NCBI GenBank assembly: GCA_963580285.1
Contig: CAUZLF010000205.1
Location: 103,784-167,783 of the forward strand
Source of the DNA: Lucinisca nassula
Taxonomy: Eukaryota > Mollusca > Bivalvia > Lucinida > Lucinidae
Length of the DNA: 64,000 bases
Direction: 5' to 3'
The notes below the pieces were generated by a model. The model searched no databases. It saw only the letters and a program-made list of their open reading frames with translations, and was not told the origin of the DNA. Within the stretch, counting starts at the first letter, position 1; every line of letters starts with the position of its first letter. This document shows positions 12,490 to 58,076 of the stretch, piece by piece. The position numbers and the translations under genes are program-made.

Positions 12490-12925
12490 AGGCACCCTTT
12501 AGGGGTTTCGCGCCTACAGGATACATAGATACTGGAAACAGGACTTCAACATATTCTTCATATAAACATAACTCTGTCTAATGACTATTCAATAAAATGA
12601 TGAAATGAAATCATACCAACACATCTGGAAGACATCAGGCTTGTAACAGCAGAACATGTTTTAAAATTTTGGTTTGGTTAAAGCCCAGTCAACACTATTT
12701 AGGTCATGTCTTTTTCTGGACAGGCTCATACATAAGCAGTTAGCTACTGCACTGCACATTCTTTTGCCCCAAGCTGACAGTGGAAGAGAATGACCATAGA
12801 AAATAGTGAAATTCTGCTATTAAGACCATCTAAAATTGAGACTAATTCTGCTTTAAAATTCTTATTTAGACGGGTGCAGTTATTCTTTCTTTGTTTTTTT
12901 CTGAAAAAAGTGTCTTCTGGTCAGG

Positions 12926-12990
12926 GACCACCTTTGGGACTGTTCAAAAGTGGTCTTAAAGACCACTTTTGAACAGTCCCAAAGGTGGTC
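12926..12990. repeat. Perfect 65-bp palindrome
   Basis: The 30-nt arm starting GACCACCTTTGGGACTGTTC is an exact complement of 12961-12990 around a 5-nt loop TTAAA. Two relatives are at 33762-33828 (imperfect) and 38248-38345 (right arm duplicated). In NDST intron 6 just downstream of exon 6. Confidence 0.9.
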
Positions 12991-13065
12991 TTAATATAGG
13001 AATTTTACTGTATTTCAAGATCAGAGTTTTTGAAAAACTTCCATGTAAACCTTTTCCTCACTTAC

Positions 13066-33605: not shown

Positions 33606-33761
33606 CAGGTACCCCTTTTGGGGTTTCTGGTACAAAATGGGTTAATTCAACTTACCCACTAGACCAAAGAGGCCTGTCGCCCAACTGTAAGTCAATATCA
33701 GTTGGACGCCCAATGCCAAAGAGTGATCAGATGTAGTAAAATTATGTACAAGTATATAAAG

Positions 33762-33828
33762 AACACCTTTGGTACTGTTCAAAAGTGGTCTTTAAGACTA
33801 TTTCTGAACAGTCTCAAAAGTGGACTCT
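33762..33828. repeat. Foldback of the GACCACCTTTGGGAC family, imperfect
   Basis: AACACCTTTGGTACTGTTCA and AAGTGGTC pair imperfectly with GACTATTTCTGAACAGTCTC and AAAAGTGG. Diverged relative of 12926-12990. Confidence 0.75.
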
Positions 33829-33951
33829 TACTAGAGGAGATTGTGTATAGAAAACAAAAAGAAAAAATGAAATCTTAAATGAAGAATTAGTCATAATGTA
33901 AGCTAATAGTGATTTCTGTGTTACCCACCGAGTTGATACATTGATGAGTTA

Positions 33952-38050: not shown

Positions 38051-38247
38051 GAATCTTTGATTCCTGGGACATAAAAAAAGGAGCTGCTGTTATTGTGGCT
38101 AACGATGTTCCTTCTCAGAGCTGACCACTTTTGTAAACTTTTTAAACTTACCCCAATGAACAACCCAATTTTTTTCTTTTTTTTTTTTTTGGGAATAAAA
38201 ATTTATTTTCAATCATGTAAATGTTAAAACAAACCTTTATAGAGTAA

Positions 38248-38345
38248 GACCACCTTTGGGACTGTTCAGAAGTGGTCTTTAAGACCAATTTTGAACAGTC
38301 CCAAAGGTGGTCTAAGACCAATTTTGAACAGTCCCAAAGGTGGTC
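38248..38345. repeat. Foldback with duplicated right arm
   Basis: The left arm GACCACCTTTGGGACTGTTC and AGAAGTGGTC is followed by two tandem copies (38283-38312 and 38316-38345) of its complementary arm GACCAATTTTGAACAGTCCC plus AAAGGTGGTC. Same family as 12926-12990. Confidence 0.88.
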
Positions 38346-51266: not shown

Positions 51267-51790
51267 CGATAAAAGTAGAAGTAAAACAAAGATCAGGAAT
51301 TGATACAATTAACTTACTCCATCCATAAAAGACACCAAAGGGAAAGAAATACAAACATCAAGCGACCAGACCATAATGGAAACCTAAACAAAGGAAGGCC
51401 ATATGAACAGTTACTTTCCCACAAAATGGCCATATGGCCATCCAAAATTAAAAGACACAAGTGATACACACAGTAAGTAACAAACAACAACATAAATAAA
51501 TCGCCACAGAAGAGCCGCCTAGGAACGGTCAGTGGAAGATTTCCACTGGGGGGCTTAAATCGATTTTACGTGGCCACAATCCTCGCCCTTACTTCCGTCG
51601 CGATTTAGACAAATAATTTGTTCAGTCCGCATGAAGGCCTCCTAACTCATCAGTGCAACATCTCCGTGAACACAGAAATCAAAGAACCACAGAGGTGAGA
51701 CAACGGTGAGGACTCGACAGCAAGAAACCACTGAAATGCTGGAGCAAAAGAAAACCAACAGTTAGACTCCGATGAGCCCGACCAGAGACA
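51267..51790 (-). mobile_element. Inverted, truncated PLE 3' end
   Basis: Reverse copy of the 3' untranslated region of the PLE at 52242-56422, from AGTAGAAGTAAAACAAAGAT (its 3' end) to GAGCCCGACCAGAGACAG. It stops just short of the SECIS-like stem. It interrupts a foldback-family flank: the same flank is uninterrupted at 3030-3120, which serves as an empty-site reference. Confidence 0.85.
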
Positions 51791-52049
51791 GATTTACAAT
51801 GTATTTGTATAGGCGTGTTTTCGTAATAGGAACAAATTACATGGATATTTTGTGTCGATTGTTTGTCAACTAACTAAAGTTACCAAGCAGAAAAGCTCTT
51901 CAGTCCACGTGACTATCACTGACGTATCGGAATAACTTTTTATATAGAAAATAGCCGCAGTGACCGAGGGCAGAGTGTTGCGTAAGAGGGACATTTTTAA
52001 TCATAGTTGGGCTTGGCAAACAGTGTGGACCAGACGCCTCAAAAACTAT

Positions 52050-52241
52050 GTAAAGTAGAAGTAAAACAAAGATCAGGAATCGATACAATTAACTTACTCC
52101 ACCCATCAAAGACACCAAAGGGAAAGAAACACAAACATTAAGCGACCAGACCATAATGGAAACCTAAACAAAGGAAGGCCATAAGGACAGTTACTTTTCC
52201 ACAAAATGGCCATATGGCCATCCAAAAAAAAAAGACACAAG
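52050..52241 (-). mobile_element. Short inverted PLE 3' fragment
   Basis: AAAGTAGAAGTAAAACAAAG to AAAAGACACAAG, reverse orientation, directly abutting the plus-strand 3'-end fragment at 52242-52289. Tail-to-tail inverted pieces at the 5' side of a copy are frequent in Penelope-like elements. Confidence 0.85.
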
Positions 52242-52524
52242 TAAGTTAATTGTATCAATTCCTGATCTTTGTTTTACTTCTACTTTGCATATCAAGGCTG
52301 TTTTGTTTGTGCCGTGTGGCGGCTGTAAAAGGTCTCCCCGTACATGCATTTAATGCTCTTATTTTTCCAATCCTCAGGGATTGCTTATGCAATTGCTTTT
52401 CACTGTTCCATCAATTGACATCCTTTAGATAGCTGTTGAAGGTCATTATTAAACCGATGTTCGTTCCTCGTTGTATAACAACTGCTTGTTTGACATCCCT
52501 GTACTTTAAGTAGACTAGGATGTT

Positions 52525-53572
52525 TTGTGGGCTTTTGTTGTACCTTCCTTCTATTCGAAGGAATCTTCTTCAGTAATTTTATGTGCTGTTTTATATTTAT
52601 TTAATAACCGGTATGAACATCGCTTTGGTTTTGACGGTATCACAACCTTATTAACCAAAATGAGTATTACAAATACATTTAAAATATCAATATCACCCCT
52701 TAGGTTACACTCTGCTTCTTCTGTACGGATTCCCCATTCTATTAAGAACTTTAATACTATGTTGCCTTCGGTATTGGTTAGACCCTTAAATTTGTCTTCT
52801 GTAACTTCAGTTAATCTCAAAGGAGCAGGCAATACCAATGTTTTTGTGAGTAGTCTTCGTATAAGACTATCTCCACTCAAATCGCACATCCTTCGAAAAT
52901 ATACTAATCCGTGGAAAAGAAGTGGAATGTATCCTAGTATTTCTAAGTGCAATGCCAAGAGGTGCAGATGTTGTTCGCATTTAAGCACTGCGTCTACCGT
53001 TACTTCATCTGTAAACGGTAGACGCTTCTCTGTAGTTAACATGTCTGATTTGACATGACAGTCTACAGATTTAATTTATCTAATTACTTGACGTGCTGCA
53101 AACTGTAATATGCAGTACGTCGGTCAAACTAACCGCATGCTTAAAACTAGCATTATCGTAGAATGAGTAAGCCTAAGAAAACTGACACTTTCTTGTACCG
53201 TCACTTTCGACGTACAGGTCATTCTGTAAATAACATTGTTATACAACCAGTGGAAAAACTTTATTACGATGCAAATTCTACATCTAGATTCAAAATAATC
53301 AAAAGACATGAAGCTGAACTGAAATGGATTAAATTTTTACAGACCCCTTTTCCACTGGGATTTAATGACAATATTTATCACGAGGGTAATATTTCCAGAA
53401 TGCCGGACTTTGATATTTTCTCACTTCTGGAATGTCGAAAACGCAGAACTAGATCTCACGGCACCAGGAAAAATGGTAACTTTAAACGTAAATCACGTGC
53501 GTTTAAACGAAACAATACTAGACTTAAGTGACTGTCAATTATATCATGGACGCCACTCTATGCTTTCTTTTT
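52525..53572 (+). pseudogene. PLE N-terminal and GIY-YIG region with in-frame TGAs
   Basis: Frame from 52525: a Ser-rich region, LRIRLSPLKSHILRKYTNPW and the Cys cluster KCNAKRCRCCSHL. Then MSDLT, TGA (53056-53058), QSTDLIYLIT, TGA (53089-53091), RAANCNMQYVGQTNRMLKT. LIY and QYVGQT are the GIY and YIG motifs. A small deletion near 53130 shifts the frame; the next frame reads MSKPKKTDTFLYRHFRRTGH and KRHEAELKWIKFLQTPFPLG, then YHEGNISRMPDFDIFSLLE, a conserved end of this nuclease module. Two more shifts (about 53500 and 53572) lead to GRHSMLSF and then GSLPVSVLRLLDTEANKFYD. In relatives the two TGA sites are, to my recollection, cysteines. A decayed pseudogene is the alternative to selenocysteine recoding. 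Confidence 0.8.
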
Positions 53573-55853
53573 AGGTTCATTACCCGTTTCTGTTTTACGT
53601 CTTCTGGACACCGAGGCGAATAAATTCTACGATAGTTCTCATCAGTTATATGATGCGGCTCTCTTAACTAGAGGCTATACTCAGCATACTCTCCGTCCTT
53701 ACATTGACTCTGAAATTAATCATAAACGCCATTTCTTCAAAATATCCTTCATTAATAAGGGTATGGATTTTATAGATTTGCCCAGTATCTTCCGTGAGAG
53801 ATCGGTGCTTTCTTCCATTCCTGCTTATTTTCAAAATACTGAAACACCTATAATTTGCTATAAATATAACAAACCTGTTAGATCTATCATTTTTAATTTC
53901 AATAAATCTTGATATTGATACTAATACTCCTGATTCATGTGATTGTAAAAACTCAAAGTATTGCTATCCTGCTGCTGGTCATGTAATTACTGGCAACTTG
54001 AAAATTATTCCTGATTCTAGGATAAGGAATATAATTTCTAAAGGACCGAAATATCGGTTTCCTTCTAATATTGATTTCAGAAAATGTAGAGATGAAATCG
54101 CTGCTTCCTTGAATGAATTCGGTAATCGATGGTGTAAGCGAGAGTATGTTGAGCATAAAGCCCTTAAGGACTGGAAACTTAGCATTTTAAAACTAGTGAA
54201 TAAACGCATTTCTTTCTATTCTCAAAATACTAACTTATTACCTCCTAAGCCCAAGACGTCTTTACGTCATCTTAAACTAGGTATTCAAGAATTTCATAAG
54301 AAGTTTGTTTTGGCCCCTGCAGACAAGGCCGCTAACAACGTCGTCGTTGTGTGACGGCTCCACTATGTTAACACGCTTAAGCAGGAGCTTGGTAGTACTA
54401 AGGCCTATGAACTTCAGCCTTTAACTGAAGAGAGAGCTATAGTAGATAAACATGTTTGTCTTTCAGCCACCAAGTTTCCTGTGTGTGTTAACGAAGGCCA
54501 AGACAAGCTTCCTACGCTGTACTGGTTACCAAAACTTCATAAAAAACCTTACAAAGCACGGTTTATTGCAAATTCTAGCTCTTGCACTACCACTGAACTT
54601 TCTAAATTATTAACTTCCTGTCTTACTGCTATTAAAACGCATGTAATTAAATATTGTGATAAAGTCTTTGAAAGATCAGGAAGAAATCTGTTTTGGTCTA
54701 TAAAAAATTCGAATGAGGTTTTAAATAAATTGAAATCTAGACATTTTCGTGCTTCTAGTCTGTCTACCTACGATTTTTCCACTCTTTACACTACACTTCC
54801 TCATAATCTTATAAAAGAAAAGCTTAATGATTTAATTGAATGGGCTTTTCACAAAGAAGATTCTCTCTATCTTGCATGTAATGTCAGAAATGCATTTTTC
54901 ACTTCTAAAGAGCAAAAGAATTATACACTTTGGTCATGTCAGAAAGTGTGTGATGCCCTCACCTTTCTACTTGACAATATTTATATTAGATTCGGTACTA
55001 AGTTATTTAGACAAATTGTGGGTATTCCGATGGGTAGTAATTGCGCACCTCTTGTGGCTGATCTGTTCTTGTATTGTTATGAAAGAGACTTCATTTTGTC
55101 CCTTTCCATTGATAACCAATCTGAAATTATTGAAGCTTTTAGCTCTACTTCTAGATATTTAGATGATTTATTAAATATTGATAATACCTATTTTGATGGT
55201 TTGATCAGTCAGATTTACCCCCTAGAACTTCAGTTAAATAAAGCAAATTCTTCTGATACCGAGGCCCCGTTTTTGGATTTACATCTATCTATTGTAGATG
55301 GATTTGTTTCGTGCAAAATTTATGATAAACGCGATGACTTTGATTTTGAGATTGTAAATTTTCCTTTTTTGGATGGTGATGTTCCTCGGGCGCCATCCTA
55401 TGGCGTTTATATTTCGCAATTAATTCGATTTGCTAGAGTGTGTAGTCATGTAACTGACTTCAACACTCGTAATAAATTATTAACGGCTAAACTCCTTAAT
55501 CAGGGTTATCGGTACCATAAACTACGCAAAGCCTTTTCAAAATTTTATAGACGCCATTCTGATTTAATTTCAAAATTCAATATTGGACTTAAATCTCTTC
55601 TGCAACAAGGTCTATCGGAACCCGAATTTTATGGTGACTTAGTATATAATTCAGAAAAATATATAACCGCAATGACTTCAGCACCCAATTTCGTAAAATC
55701 ATTCTTCGATATAAAAAGATTGGGTACAACATGGATATTATACGACAGACTGCATGCATGGTAGTTAACCCAATCACGGTTGGCAACTTTGCTTCCCTCT
55801 TTCATTGCACGCCGGTGGGTCAGACCTCAGATTCTATGACGGCTCCAACGTAA
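53573..55853 (+). pseudogene. PLE reverse transcriptase, one in-frame TGA, late frameshift
   Basis: The upstream part GSLPVSVLRLLDTEANKFYD to KPVRSIIFNFNK is followed by a frameshift near 53907. From LDIDTNTPDSCDCKN one frame runs to 55764, broken only by TGA at 54352-54354 (NNVVVV-TGA-RLHYVNTLKQEL). RT landmarks are LYWLPKLHKKPYKARFIANS, motif A TYDFSTLYTTLPHNLI, motif B GIPMGSNCAPLVADLFLYCY, motif C RYLDDLLNID and PFLDLHL. The TAG at 55762 is reached only because of a 1-nt loss near 55648. The family frame continues KKIGYNMDIIRQTACMVVNP, ITVGNFASLFHCTPVGQ and SDSMTAPT, ending at TAA 55851-55853. The YLDD catalytic pair is intact. Confidence 0.88.
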
Positions 55854-55900
55854 AGGCTTATTGAAAATTAGAGAGATAATGTTGGTTGGTGCCTGATGCT
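55830..55900 (+). promoter_or_regulatory. SECIS-like stem-loop overlapping PLE stop codon
   Basis: ATGA (55836-55839), C, then GGCTCCAAC (55841-55849). This pairs with GTTGGTGCC (55885-55893) with one central U-U mismatch, followed at once by TGAT (55894-55897). AAA lies at 55852-55854, 12 nt after ATGA, at the start of the apical loop. A ministem TTATT (55858-55862)/GATAA (55875-55879) could form above it, as in type 2 SECIS. The left half also encodes the protein end SMTAPT and the TAA, so coding constraint alone explains part of it. Placement across a stop codon would be unusual. Confidence 0.45.
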
Positions 55901-56422
55901 CTGTCTCTGGTCGGGCTCATCGGAGTCTAACTGTTGGTTTTCTTTTGCTCCAGCCTTTCAGTGGTTTCTTGCTGTCGAGTCCTCATCGTTGTCTCACCTC
56001 TGTGGTTCTTTGATTTTTGTGTTCACGGAGATGTTGCACTGATGAGTTAGGAGGCCTTCATGCGGACTGAACAAATTATTTGTCTAACTCGCGACGGAAG
56101 TAAGGGCGAGGATTGTGGCCACGTAAAATCGATTTAAGCCCCCCAGTGGAAATTTTCCACTGACCGTTCCAAGGCGGCTCTTCTGTGGCGATTTATTTAT
56201 GTTGTTGTTTGTTACTTACTGTGTGTATCACTTGTGTCTTTTAATTTTGGATGGCCATATGGCCATTTTGTGGGAAAGTAACTGTCCTTATGGCCTTCCT
56301 TTGTTTAGGTTTCCATTATGGTCTTGTCGCTTAATGTTTGTATTTCTTTCCCTTTGGTGTCTTTTATGGGTGGAGTAAGTTAATTGTATCAATTCCTGAT
56401 CTTTGTTTTACTTCTACTTTGC

Positions 56423-57078
56423 GTAGTTTATGGGACCGACAACTTTGCTTCCCTCTTTAATTGCACGCCGGTGGATCAGGCCTCATATTCTATGACGGTT
56501 CCAGCGTAAAGGCTTAATGAGAATTAGAGGGAATCTTATTTTATGAAATGTTGGTTGGTGTCTGATGCTCTGTCTATGGTTGGGCCCATCGGAGTCTAAC
56601 TGTTGGTTTTCTTTTGCTCCATTTCAGTGGTTTCTTGCTGTCGAGACCTCGCCGTTGTTTCATCATTGTGGTTGGTTGATTTTTGTGTTCACGAAGATGT
56701 TGCACTGATGAGTTAGGAGGCCTCCATGCGGACTGAACCATGTATTTGTCTAAATCGCGACGGAAGTAAGGGCGAGGATTGTGGCCACGTAAAATCGATT
56801 TAAGCCCCCAGTGGAATTCGTTTCACTGACCGTTCCAAGGCGGTTCTTCTGCCGTGGTTTATTTTTGTTATGGCTTGTCTTTGAGTGTATGTATCGCTTA
56901 TATTATTTTGCTTTGGATAGGCAATTGGCCATTTTGTGGGAAAGTAACTGTCCTTTTGGCTTTCCGCTAGAGATGTTTCCATTGGGGTCTAGTTGTTTCG
57001 TGTCTGTGTTCCCCCCCCCCCCCTTGGTGTCTCGGTTAATTTTATCGATTCTTGATCATTGCTTCACTTCTATTTTGT
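56423..57078 (+). mobile_element. Second PLE copy, 3' end, head-to-tail
   Basis: Begins directly after the first copy's 3' terminus with the last about 25 codons (NFASLFNCTPVDQ, SMTVPA, TAA) and continues through the 3' untranslated region to TTGCTTCACTTCTATTTTGT. It is more diverged than the first copy (ATATTATTTTGC, poly-C at 57010). Head-to-tail partial copies are typical of Penelope-like elements. Confidence 0.85.
56488..56570 (+). promoter_or_regulatory. SECIS-like stem, second PLE copy
   Basis: ATGA at 56492-56495, GGTTCCAGC (56497-56505) against GTTGGTGTC (56554-56562), then TGAT (56563-56566). AAA follows 12 nt after ATGA as in the first copy. Changes from the first copy (C to T and A to G on the left, C to T on the right) keep pairing through G-U wobbles. 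The loop carries an insertion and the ministem is unclear. Confidence 0.4.
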
Positions 57079-57480: not shown

Positions 57481-57727
57481 CGAAAACACGCCTATTCAAA
57501 GTCATGCATATTGAAAATTTTACTTCAGAAAAAAATAATAATAATAAAAAAATAAATAAATCAAAATTATCAGAAATCAGAAAGAGTTTCGACTATTTTC
57601 TCCAAACATAAAATAAGTGTACTTGTAAGAGCCACCACGACGAGGCGTTTCTAACGAGTACCCTCAAATTATGTTTTGTGCAGACATGAGAAAAAATACT
57701 CCCCTGTGAATCTACCCCTTCCTGCTT

Positions 57728-57795
57728 TGGTGTCTTTTATGGGTGGAGTAAGTTAATTGTATCAATTCCTGATCTTTGTTTTACTTCTACTTTGT
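57728..57795 (+). mobile_element. PLE 3' end fragment
   Basis: TGGTGTCTTTTATGGGTGGA to TTTGTTTTACTTCTACTTTG, the last 68 bp of the PLE, followed directly by a family S repeat. Confidence 0.8.
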
Positions 57796-58076
57796 TTTGT
57801 TTGTTTGATTTGAGGTTTAACGTCCCCGTCAACACTGTAAAGGTTATTTTGGAGACGTTGCTTCCAATATTGGTGGACTTTTACCCGACATTGAGATGAA
57901 ATGACATCTCAATCCCTGTCGCCCAATGAAACAAGTAGGGTTTATAAGCATGCTTTGCCTGGGCAGGCTTAGGTCCTCTTACCGGTTCACCAGTACTCGT
58001 ATGCGGCCGGTTTCAGCTCTGCGTGGAAGCATCATGCAGCCCATCTATTTCTTCTAGCCCAGATGGGCGGGGGGCG
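57796..58076 (+). repeat. Family S repeat
   Basis: TTGTTTGTTTGATTTGAGGT to CCCAGATGGGCGGGGGGC, near full length with a small internal deletion. Confidence 0.8.

Follow-up and report, generated by a model that had tools for sequence, protein, structure and literature searches.

A Penelope-like element (PLE) was analysed in a stretch of 64,000 nucleotides from the bivalve Lucinisca nassula (contig CAUZLF010000205.1, positions 103,784 to 167,783 of the forward strand; hereafter the window). The element belongs to a many-copy family of Naiad type whose single protein is very probably, judging from sequence comparison, a selenoprotein with four selenocysteines (Sec); the copy in the window has decayed. 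Intact sister copies elsewhere in the genome are open apart from fixed TGA codons, relatives carry Cys at three of the four TGA sites, the stretches between and after the TGAs bear a sign of purifying selection, and a structure resembling a selenocysteine insertion sequence (SECIS) is present. At the first site, TGA is replaced by Cys codons in a few copies.

The RNA of the element would carry the SECIS hairpin at the very end of its open reading frame (ORF). The selenocysteine machinery of the host would bind this hairpin and insert Sec at each of the four in-frame UGAs, and the endonuclease and reverse transcriptase (RT) would thereby be made as one protein. We infer that Sec is inserted, and with some efficiency, that the family may have been active recently and that Sec may bring the element a benefit over Cys.

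The unit, its ORF and the four TGA codons are located as follows.

52240..56425, + strand: full element unit of ∼4.2 kb; ∼97% matches to 52240-56420/56425 at many loci, several of them head-to-tail
52660..55853, + strand: ORF, ATG at 52660 and stop TAA at 55851-55853; 1,074 codons in intact sister copies
53056..53058, + strand: TGA site 1 (P0001 codon 176); relatives have Cys here, and three other copies a TGT or TGC codon
53089..53091, + strand: TGA site 2 (codon 187); aligned with Cys of relatives and just past the GIY motif
53529..53531, + strand: TGA site 3 (codon 337); within the variable linker that separates endonuclease from RT
54352..54354, + strand: TGA site 4, codon 618; in the N-terminal part of the RT, mostly Cys and in a few cases Trp in relatives

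TGA codons in the element family and its relatives

The genome searched comprised 2.93 Gb in 696 contigs. Candidate places numbered 5,604 for the DNA query (best 40 scored) and 102,204 for the protein query (best 54 scored); these are loose candidates and not copy numbers. The copy sample covered 28 loci; BLAST pieces shorter than 900 bases were dropped, which left 44. Because some loci are tandem neighbours (L013 and L014; L004, L005 and L008) and others overlap, the copies and pieces are not all independent. BLAST matches of the unit also revealed head-to-tail tandem units at several other loci, an arrangement of tandem copies that is described for Penelope-like elements (excerpt of PMC11167929).

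Compared with sister copies, the ORF of the window copy is broken by gaps of 10, 8, 1, 11 and 1 bases after positions 53150, 53542, 53567, 53905 and 55647. With its frame disrupted by these five indels, this copy is dead and decayed; its sister copies are not. No other piece shows the gaps as its majority state or shares them at those columns, and frameshifting as part of the element was rejected as it was seen in the window copy alone. Seventeen pieces span the ORF. In ten of them the 1,074 codons from ATG to TAA form an open frame that is interrupted by exactly four TGA codons and by no TAA or TAG. Of the remaining seven, four contain one or two TAA or TAG codons (L027, L013, L014 and L006) and three have lost the frame (the window copy, L001, as well as L025 and L007).

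TGA was present in every piece covering each site (26/26 at 53056, 26/26 at 53089, 28/28 at 53529 and 31/31 at 54352). Decay stops elsewhere in the ORF were found at 13 codon sites, each in 1-2 pieces (8 TAA, 2 TAG and 3 TGA), with two further stop sites upstream of the ATG. Genome-wide tblastn with P0010, which starts downstream of sites 1 and 2, returned exactly two TGA codons in 54/54 scored matches. With the full-length relatives P0025 and P0020 as queries, 65 distinct places of the family were scored, 62 with four TGA codons and three with three; neither a TAA or TAG nor a family copy without TGA was found among them. The 65 places were counted by hand from 38 rows (P0025) and 33 rows (P0020), six places being common to both. 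Seven of 45 rows (P0025) and 3 of 36 rows (P0020), several with TAA or TAG, were set aside as other families because their identity to the query was higher; one such locus, accounting for two rows, was fetched (L035) and proved to be another family with 30-47% protein identity to that of the window. The best-scoring places are biased to open frames, equally toward copies without TGA, and none of the latter turned up. An assembly artefact was rejected, the same TGAs being present at 65 scored places on many contigs.

The first-pass annotation of this DNA, made from the window sequence, had proposed a candidate selenoprotein retroelement with three TGA codons as the only stops of its conserved frames, in a decaying copy with about five frameshifts. 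The TGAs at 53056, 53089 and 54352 are indeed in place and the five gaps account for the frameshifts, which are unique to the window copy; the count of three was incomplete, as the fourth TGA at 53529-53531, which does not correspond to a Cys position of relatives, had been missed. Chance, thought there to be an improbable source of the TGAs, is excluded by their presence in all covering sister pieces. The comparison it proposed, of TGA in copies otherwise open, yielded the ten open ORF-spanning pieces with four TGAs each. Of the outcomes it named as speaking against recoding, TAA or TAG as frequent as TGA was not observed, neither being fixed anywhere in the examined pieces, while TGT, TGC or TGG in sister copies was encountered as TGT or TGC in three copies at site 1, as exceptions in a family that otherwise has TGA.

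In each of the three copies with three TGA codons, the site that differs is site 1, which reads TGT on C6 (L029), TGC on C9 (L031) and TGT on C15 (L032). Between the two TGT copies, which lie on different contigs, there is no difference over 1,809 bases; the TGC copy has 25 differences from them and did not group with them in a tree with weak supports. Because the TGT copies are identical and the TGC copy groups apart, there were probably two changes at site 1, one of which then spread to another place through transposition or duplication. Both are Cys codons, as would be expected to be seen where Sec is replaced. Cys-codon copies at sites 2 and 4 were absent from the 65 scored family places, though the queries had Cys there too.

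In a sister family of the same genome (L030), sites 2 and 4 are occupied by TGT and TGC, respectively, and site 3 by Val. No SECIS match (E ≤ 10) was obtained in ∼1 kb of its 3′ flank at either of the 2 loci examined. The L035 translation has Cys at site 1; near the other two sites its Cys residues are displaced, lying next to the aligned column of site 2 and one column away from that of site 4. Naiad-like families other than that of the window, these included, were noted at C5:124073208-124075799 (L030, L033), C9:107855329-107857854 (L034), C290:12147-14783 and C2:206219569-206222253 (L035). In these families Cys codons occupy the Sec sites or positions next to them. A single copy is stop-free over 885 amino acids, and others contain a mixture of TAA, TAG and TGA.

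Protein relatives were obtained from a search of 5.8 billion proteins, which gave 149, and the 120 listed ones were used. In this wider alignment, whose query carried C for Sec and may thereby help Cys to align, Cys was found in 72/77 sequences at site 1, 74/77 at site 2, 10/76 at site 3 and 103/119 at site 4 (Trp in 9). A cleaner alignment of 41 relatives, chosen for coverage, gave Cys in 32/32 at site 1 and 34/34 at site 2, Cys in 37 and Trp in 4 of 41 at site 4, and Cys in 0/38 aligned relatives at site 3. The expectation of Cys at the two TGAs flanking the GIY motif, and of Cys or Trp at the TGA in the RT, was thus borne out; together with the open TGA copies and the SECIS-like hairpin after the ORF, these residues support the proposal of a candidate selenoprotein retroelement. 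Since site 3 is not a Cys position and site 4 is occupied by Trp or Cys, homology does not single out Sec at either of them. The eight closest relatives in the protein library (P0002-P0009; 74-79% identity) are without the GIY-YIG part that bears the first two UGAs, perhaps because gene predictors stopped at a UGA there.

For an estimate of selection, the most frequent codon of each column served as the reference for scoring variants, with 28% synonymous changes expected; the substitution weights were assumed and the pieces are related, so that the resulting ratio of non-synonymous to synonymous rates (dN/dS) is crude. Variants present in at least two pieces comprised 56 synonymous and 47 non-synonymous changes (dN/dS 0.33). 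For codons 46-175, 176-337, 338-617 and 619-1098 the shared-variant values were 0.25, 0.38, 0.44 and 0.30 (13, 12, 15 and 62 variants). The last 19 codons, which overlap the SECIS, have 3 synonymous and 12 non-synonymous variants and show no protein-level constraint. Constrained shared variants together with relaxed singletons are the pattern that would be expected of an element active while its insertions decay, and imply translation past the TGAs. Simple decay was rejected, there being no fixed TAA or TAG and an enrichment of shared variants for synonymous changes.

The SECIS-like hairpin

Two SECIS-like hairpins were located at and beyond the end of the ORF.

55826..55905, + strand: SECIS-like hairpin; 5′ core ATGA at 55836-55839, AAR overlapping the stop TAA at 55851-55853, 3′ core TGAT at 55894-55897
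56482..56574, + strand: second SECIS-like hairpin, a diverged copy of the first, carried by another 3′ fragment

The exact core letters of a SECIS are ATGA/TGA. The structure is defined by this core together with an apical AAR motif (excerpt of PMC3706390). Among 4,227 Rfam families, SECIS_1 was the best in L017, matching once per unit (25.1 bits, E 0.18), and it was the only match at E ≤ 1 in L002 (24.1 bits). In the window it matched at 55826-55905 with E 1.6. Dividing by the number of families gives a single-family E-value of ∼4e-4, which applies because SECIS was the family predicted beforehand.

Core and AAR were kept, by pattern, in 35/37 pieces. In 12 picked sequences helix II was paired in 99% of cells, compared with 25-51% when slid. 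A 12-base insertion in the apical part lengthens a predicted stem. The 5′ arm is formed by about the last eight sense codons, and the stop codon UAA of the ORF (55851-55853) overlaps the AAR motif; many of the closest library proteins terminate in a similar way, with SDSMMAPT or SDSMMVPT. Where units are in tandem (L017), a SECIS is also placed upstream of the next ORF.

Five such hairpins came out of a simple pattern scan that covered both strands of the window; the site at the ORF end and the downstream fragment account for two of them. A diverged SECIS-like hairpin was also seen at L028:4837-4933 (+), in which the changes in helix II are one-sided and all keep pairing. Matches to microRNA models (mir-9457, mir-153) were observed on both strands at 12920-12995, 33755-33831 and 38243-38318 and are probably palindromic repeats.

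Alternative explanations

Several observations weigh against a selenoprotein. TGA in 111/111 cases is not by itself proof of constraint because divergence is only ∼1% per codon. Shared variants are few between sites 1 and 3 (12) and between sites 3 and 4 (15), and when singletons are included the crude dN/dS is 0.74 overall (0.51, 0.60, 1.00 and 0.70 for codons 46-175, 176-337, 338-617 and 619-1098), the value of 1.00 being that of the stretch from site 3 to site 4. Site 3 is not a Cys position, and close relatives show Trp as well as Cys at site 4. The three Cys-codon copies came from queries with Cys at site 1, which favour such matches. The SECIS_1 score of 25.1 bits is below the Rfam gathering cutoff of 35, and by score the window match is 27th of 33 rows, behind palindromes matching microRNA models. 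Helix II shows no covariation in the 12 sequences (of 8 pairs, none changed on both sides and six on one), and the observed measures are equalled or exceeded in 449-500 of 500 shuffles.

One alternative is that the TGAs are nonsense lesions of the ordinary kind: an intact relative would have copied a dead source element in trans, and its TGAs would simply have been inherited. The scored copies are ∼97-98% identical, so that a TGA could be shared by descent, and private decay stops do occur in other copies. Such an origin is nevertheless highly improbable given that no TAA or TAG is fixed, that 10/17 pieces are otherwise open over 1,074 codons, and that synonymous changes are over-represented among shared variants in each ORF stretch tested up to codon 1098, if by a crude test. 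Three of the four TGAs moreover fall at Cys positions, the SECIS-like hairpin is present, and none of the 65 scored places holds a family copy without TGA. The same small chance is left to selenium-free readthrough, in which UGA would be decoded by a near-cognate tRNA (e.g. for Trp or Arg) and the hairpin would be incidental. Trp at site 4 in 9/119 relatives, close ones included, is in keeping with it, as are the lack of Cys at site 3 in the cleaner alignment and the sub-threshold SECIS score. It fits poorly with Cys at sites 1 and 2 in practically all covering relatives, with the three replacements within the family at site 1, which are TGT and TGC (from Cys-biased queries), and with the SECIS core and AAR kept in 35/37 pieces; by reasoning, four leaky stops in series would also yield very little product. 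Decoding of the four UGAs as Sec by way of the hairpin is therefore preferred.

An elaboration of Sec decoding, itself unlikely, is that selenium supply acts as a switch through the UGA of site 3 and the stop codon embedded in the SECIS. The UGA at site 3 would either terminate translation, giving an endonuclease-only product, or be read, giving the fusion of endonuclease and RT. A ribosome terminating in the AAR would interfere with the SECIS and so tune recoding according to translation of the ORF end.

Domain anatomy and relation to known systems

The conserved parts of the protein are given below with one repeat feature of the flank.

53071..53127, + strand: core of the GIY-YIG endonuclease (LIYLIT ... 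QYVGQ), aligned with relatives matching PF01541
53938..53946, + strand: CxC motif (C-D-C), both Cys in at least 90% of 42 sequences
54355..55764, + strand: telomerase-like RT region, with RYLDD at 55153-55167 and a weak sub-cutoff RVT_1 match
51272..51792, - strand: inverted copy of the element's 3′ pseudo-long-terminal-repeat (pseudo-LTR) region, upstream of the unit; 521-nt inverted repeat against 55900-56420, 98%

PF01541 scored above its cutoff in P0020 and just below it in P0025. P0001 itself had no Pfam match, and a Pfam scan of the window gave a sub-cutoff RVT_1 in one of five pieces and nothing else. The CxC motif is placed between endonuclease and RT. Cys and His columns are conserved in the endonuclease, and two of the Cys columns are Sec sites; these columns may correspond to a CCHH motif. 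In a fold model with pLDDT 82 and pTM 0.65, the 17 best of 52 PDB matches (E ≤ 0.001) were telomerases, with low TM-scores of 0.22-0.31 by query length. No hammerhead ribozyme was matched in Rfam scans of L017 (E ≤ 10), L002 (E ≤ 1) and the window (E ≤ 3). In P0020, P0021 and P0022 a C-terminal ubiquitin carboxyl-terminal hydrolase domain (PF00443) was noted behind the endonuclease and RT, and was checked in P0020.

Naiads reportedly (Craig et al. 2021, Mol Biol Evol 38:5005) have a telomerase-related RT, an N-terminal GIY-YIG domain, CCHH and CxC motifs and pseudo-LTRs, and no canonical hammerhead; an insertion-in-fingers domain and a bias to microsatellite targets are also said to be among their features. 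The order of endonuclease, CxC and RT, the pseudo-LTRs, the lack of a hammerhead match and the telomerase-like predicted fold all fit this clade. In the same report, Naiads of spiders and clams are said to have independently evolved selenoproteins with several selenocysteines. These selenoprotein Naiads reportedly share with the element here the order GIY-YIG, CxC and RT, pseudo-LTRs with tandem and inverted copies, the lack of a hammerhead match and several in-frame UGAs. Selenoprotein Naiads are thus reportedly a known kind, and the element is a well-supported further example and not a new kind. Full-text literature searches on PLEs, selenoproteins and SECIS near coding sequence gave no paper on selenoprotein PLEs among the matches listed. 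The SECIS-embedded stop, the non-Cys linker UGA and the Cys copies were likewise not found among the literature matches listed, and may be described in Craig et al. 2021.

Canonical Penelope elements with a C-terminal endonuclease resemble the element in combining GIY-YIG and a telomerase-like RT in one ORF, and in their pseudo-LTR and tandem copies, whereas they have the opposite domain order and a hammerhead ribozyme, which had no match here (excerpt of PMC11167929). A working SECIS within coding sequence is described for GPX4 of fowlpox virus (excerpts of PMC8310308 and PMC6769590), and in both cases the SECIS overlaps the reading frame instead of being confined to the 3′ untranslated region (UTR). 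According to the same excerpts the fowlpox protein is a viral redox enzyme with its SECIS within the frame, whereas in this retroelement the 5′ arm alone is in frame and the stop is at the AAR. In Selenoprotein P several UGAs per mRNA are decoded as Sec, as is predicted here; it has ten UGAs and two SECIS in the 3′ UTR, compared with four UGAs and one SECIS match per unit (excerpt of PMC5133445).

If true, selenium-dependent retroelements would tie genome invasion to the supply of a trace element, and gene predictors may misread them. Ten open copies, natural Cys codons at site 1 and a SECIS-embedded stop would make the question of why a transposon should use Sec and not Cys approachable by reporter.

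Directly downstream of the unit, more diverged fragments of the 3′ pseudo-LTR were observed at 56440-57010 and 57725-57802, with 76-96% identity to parts of the unit.

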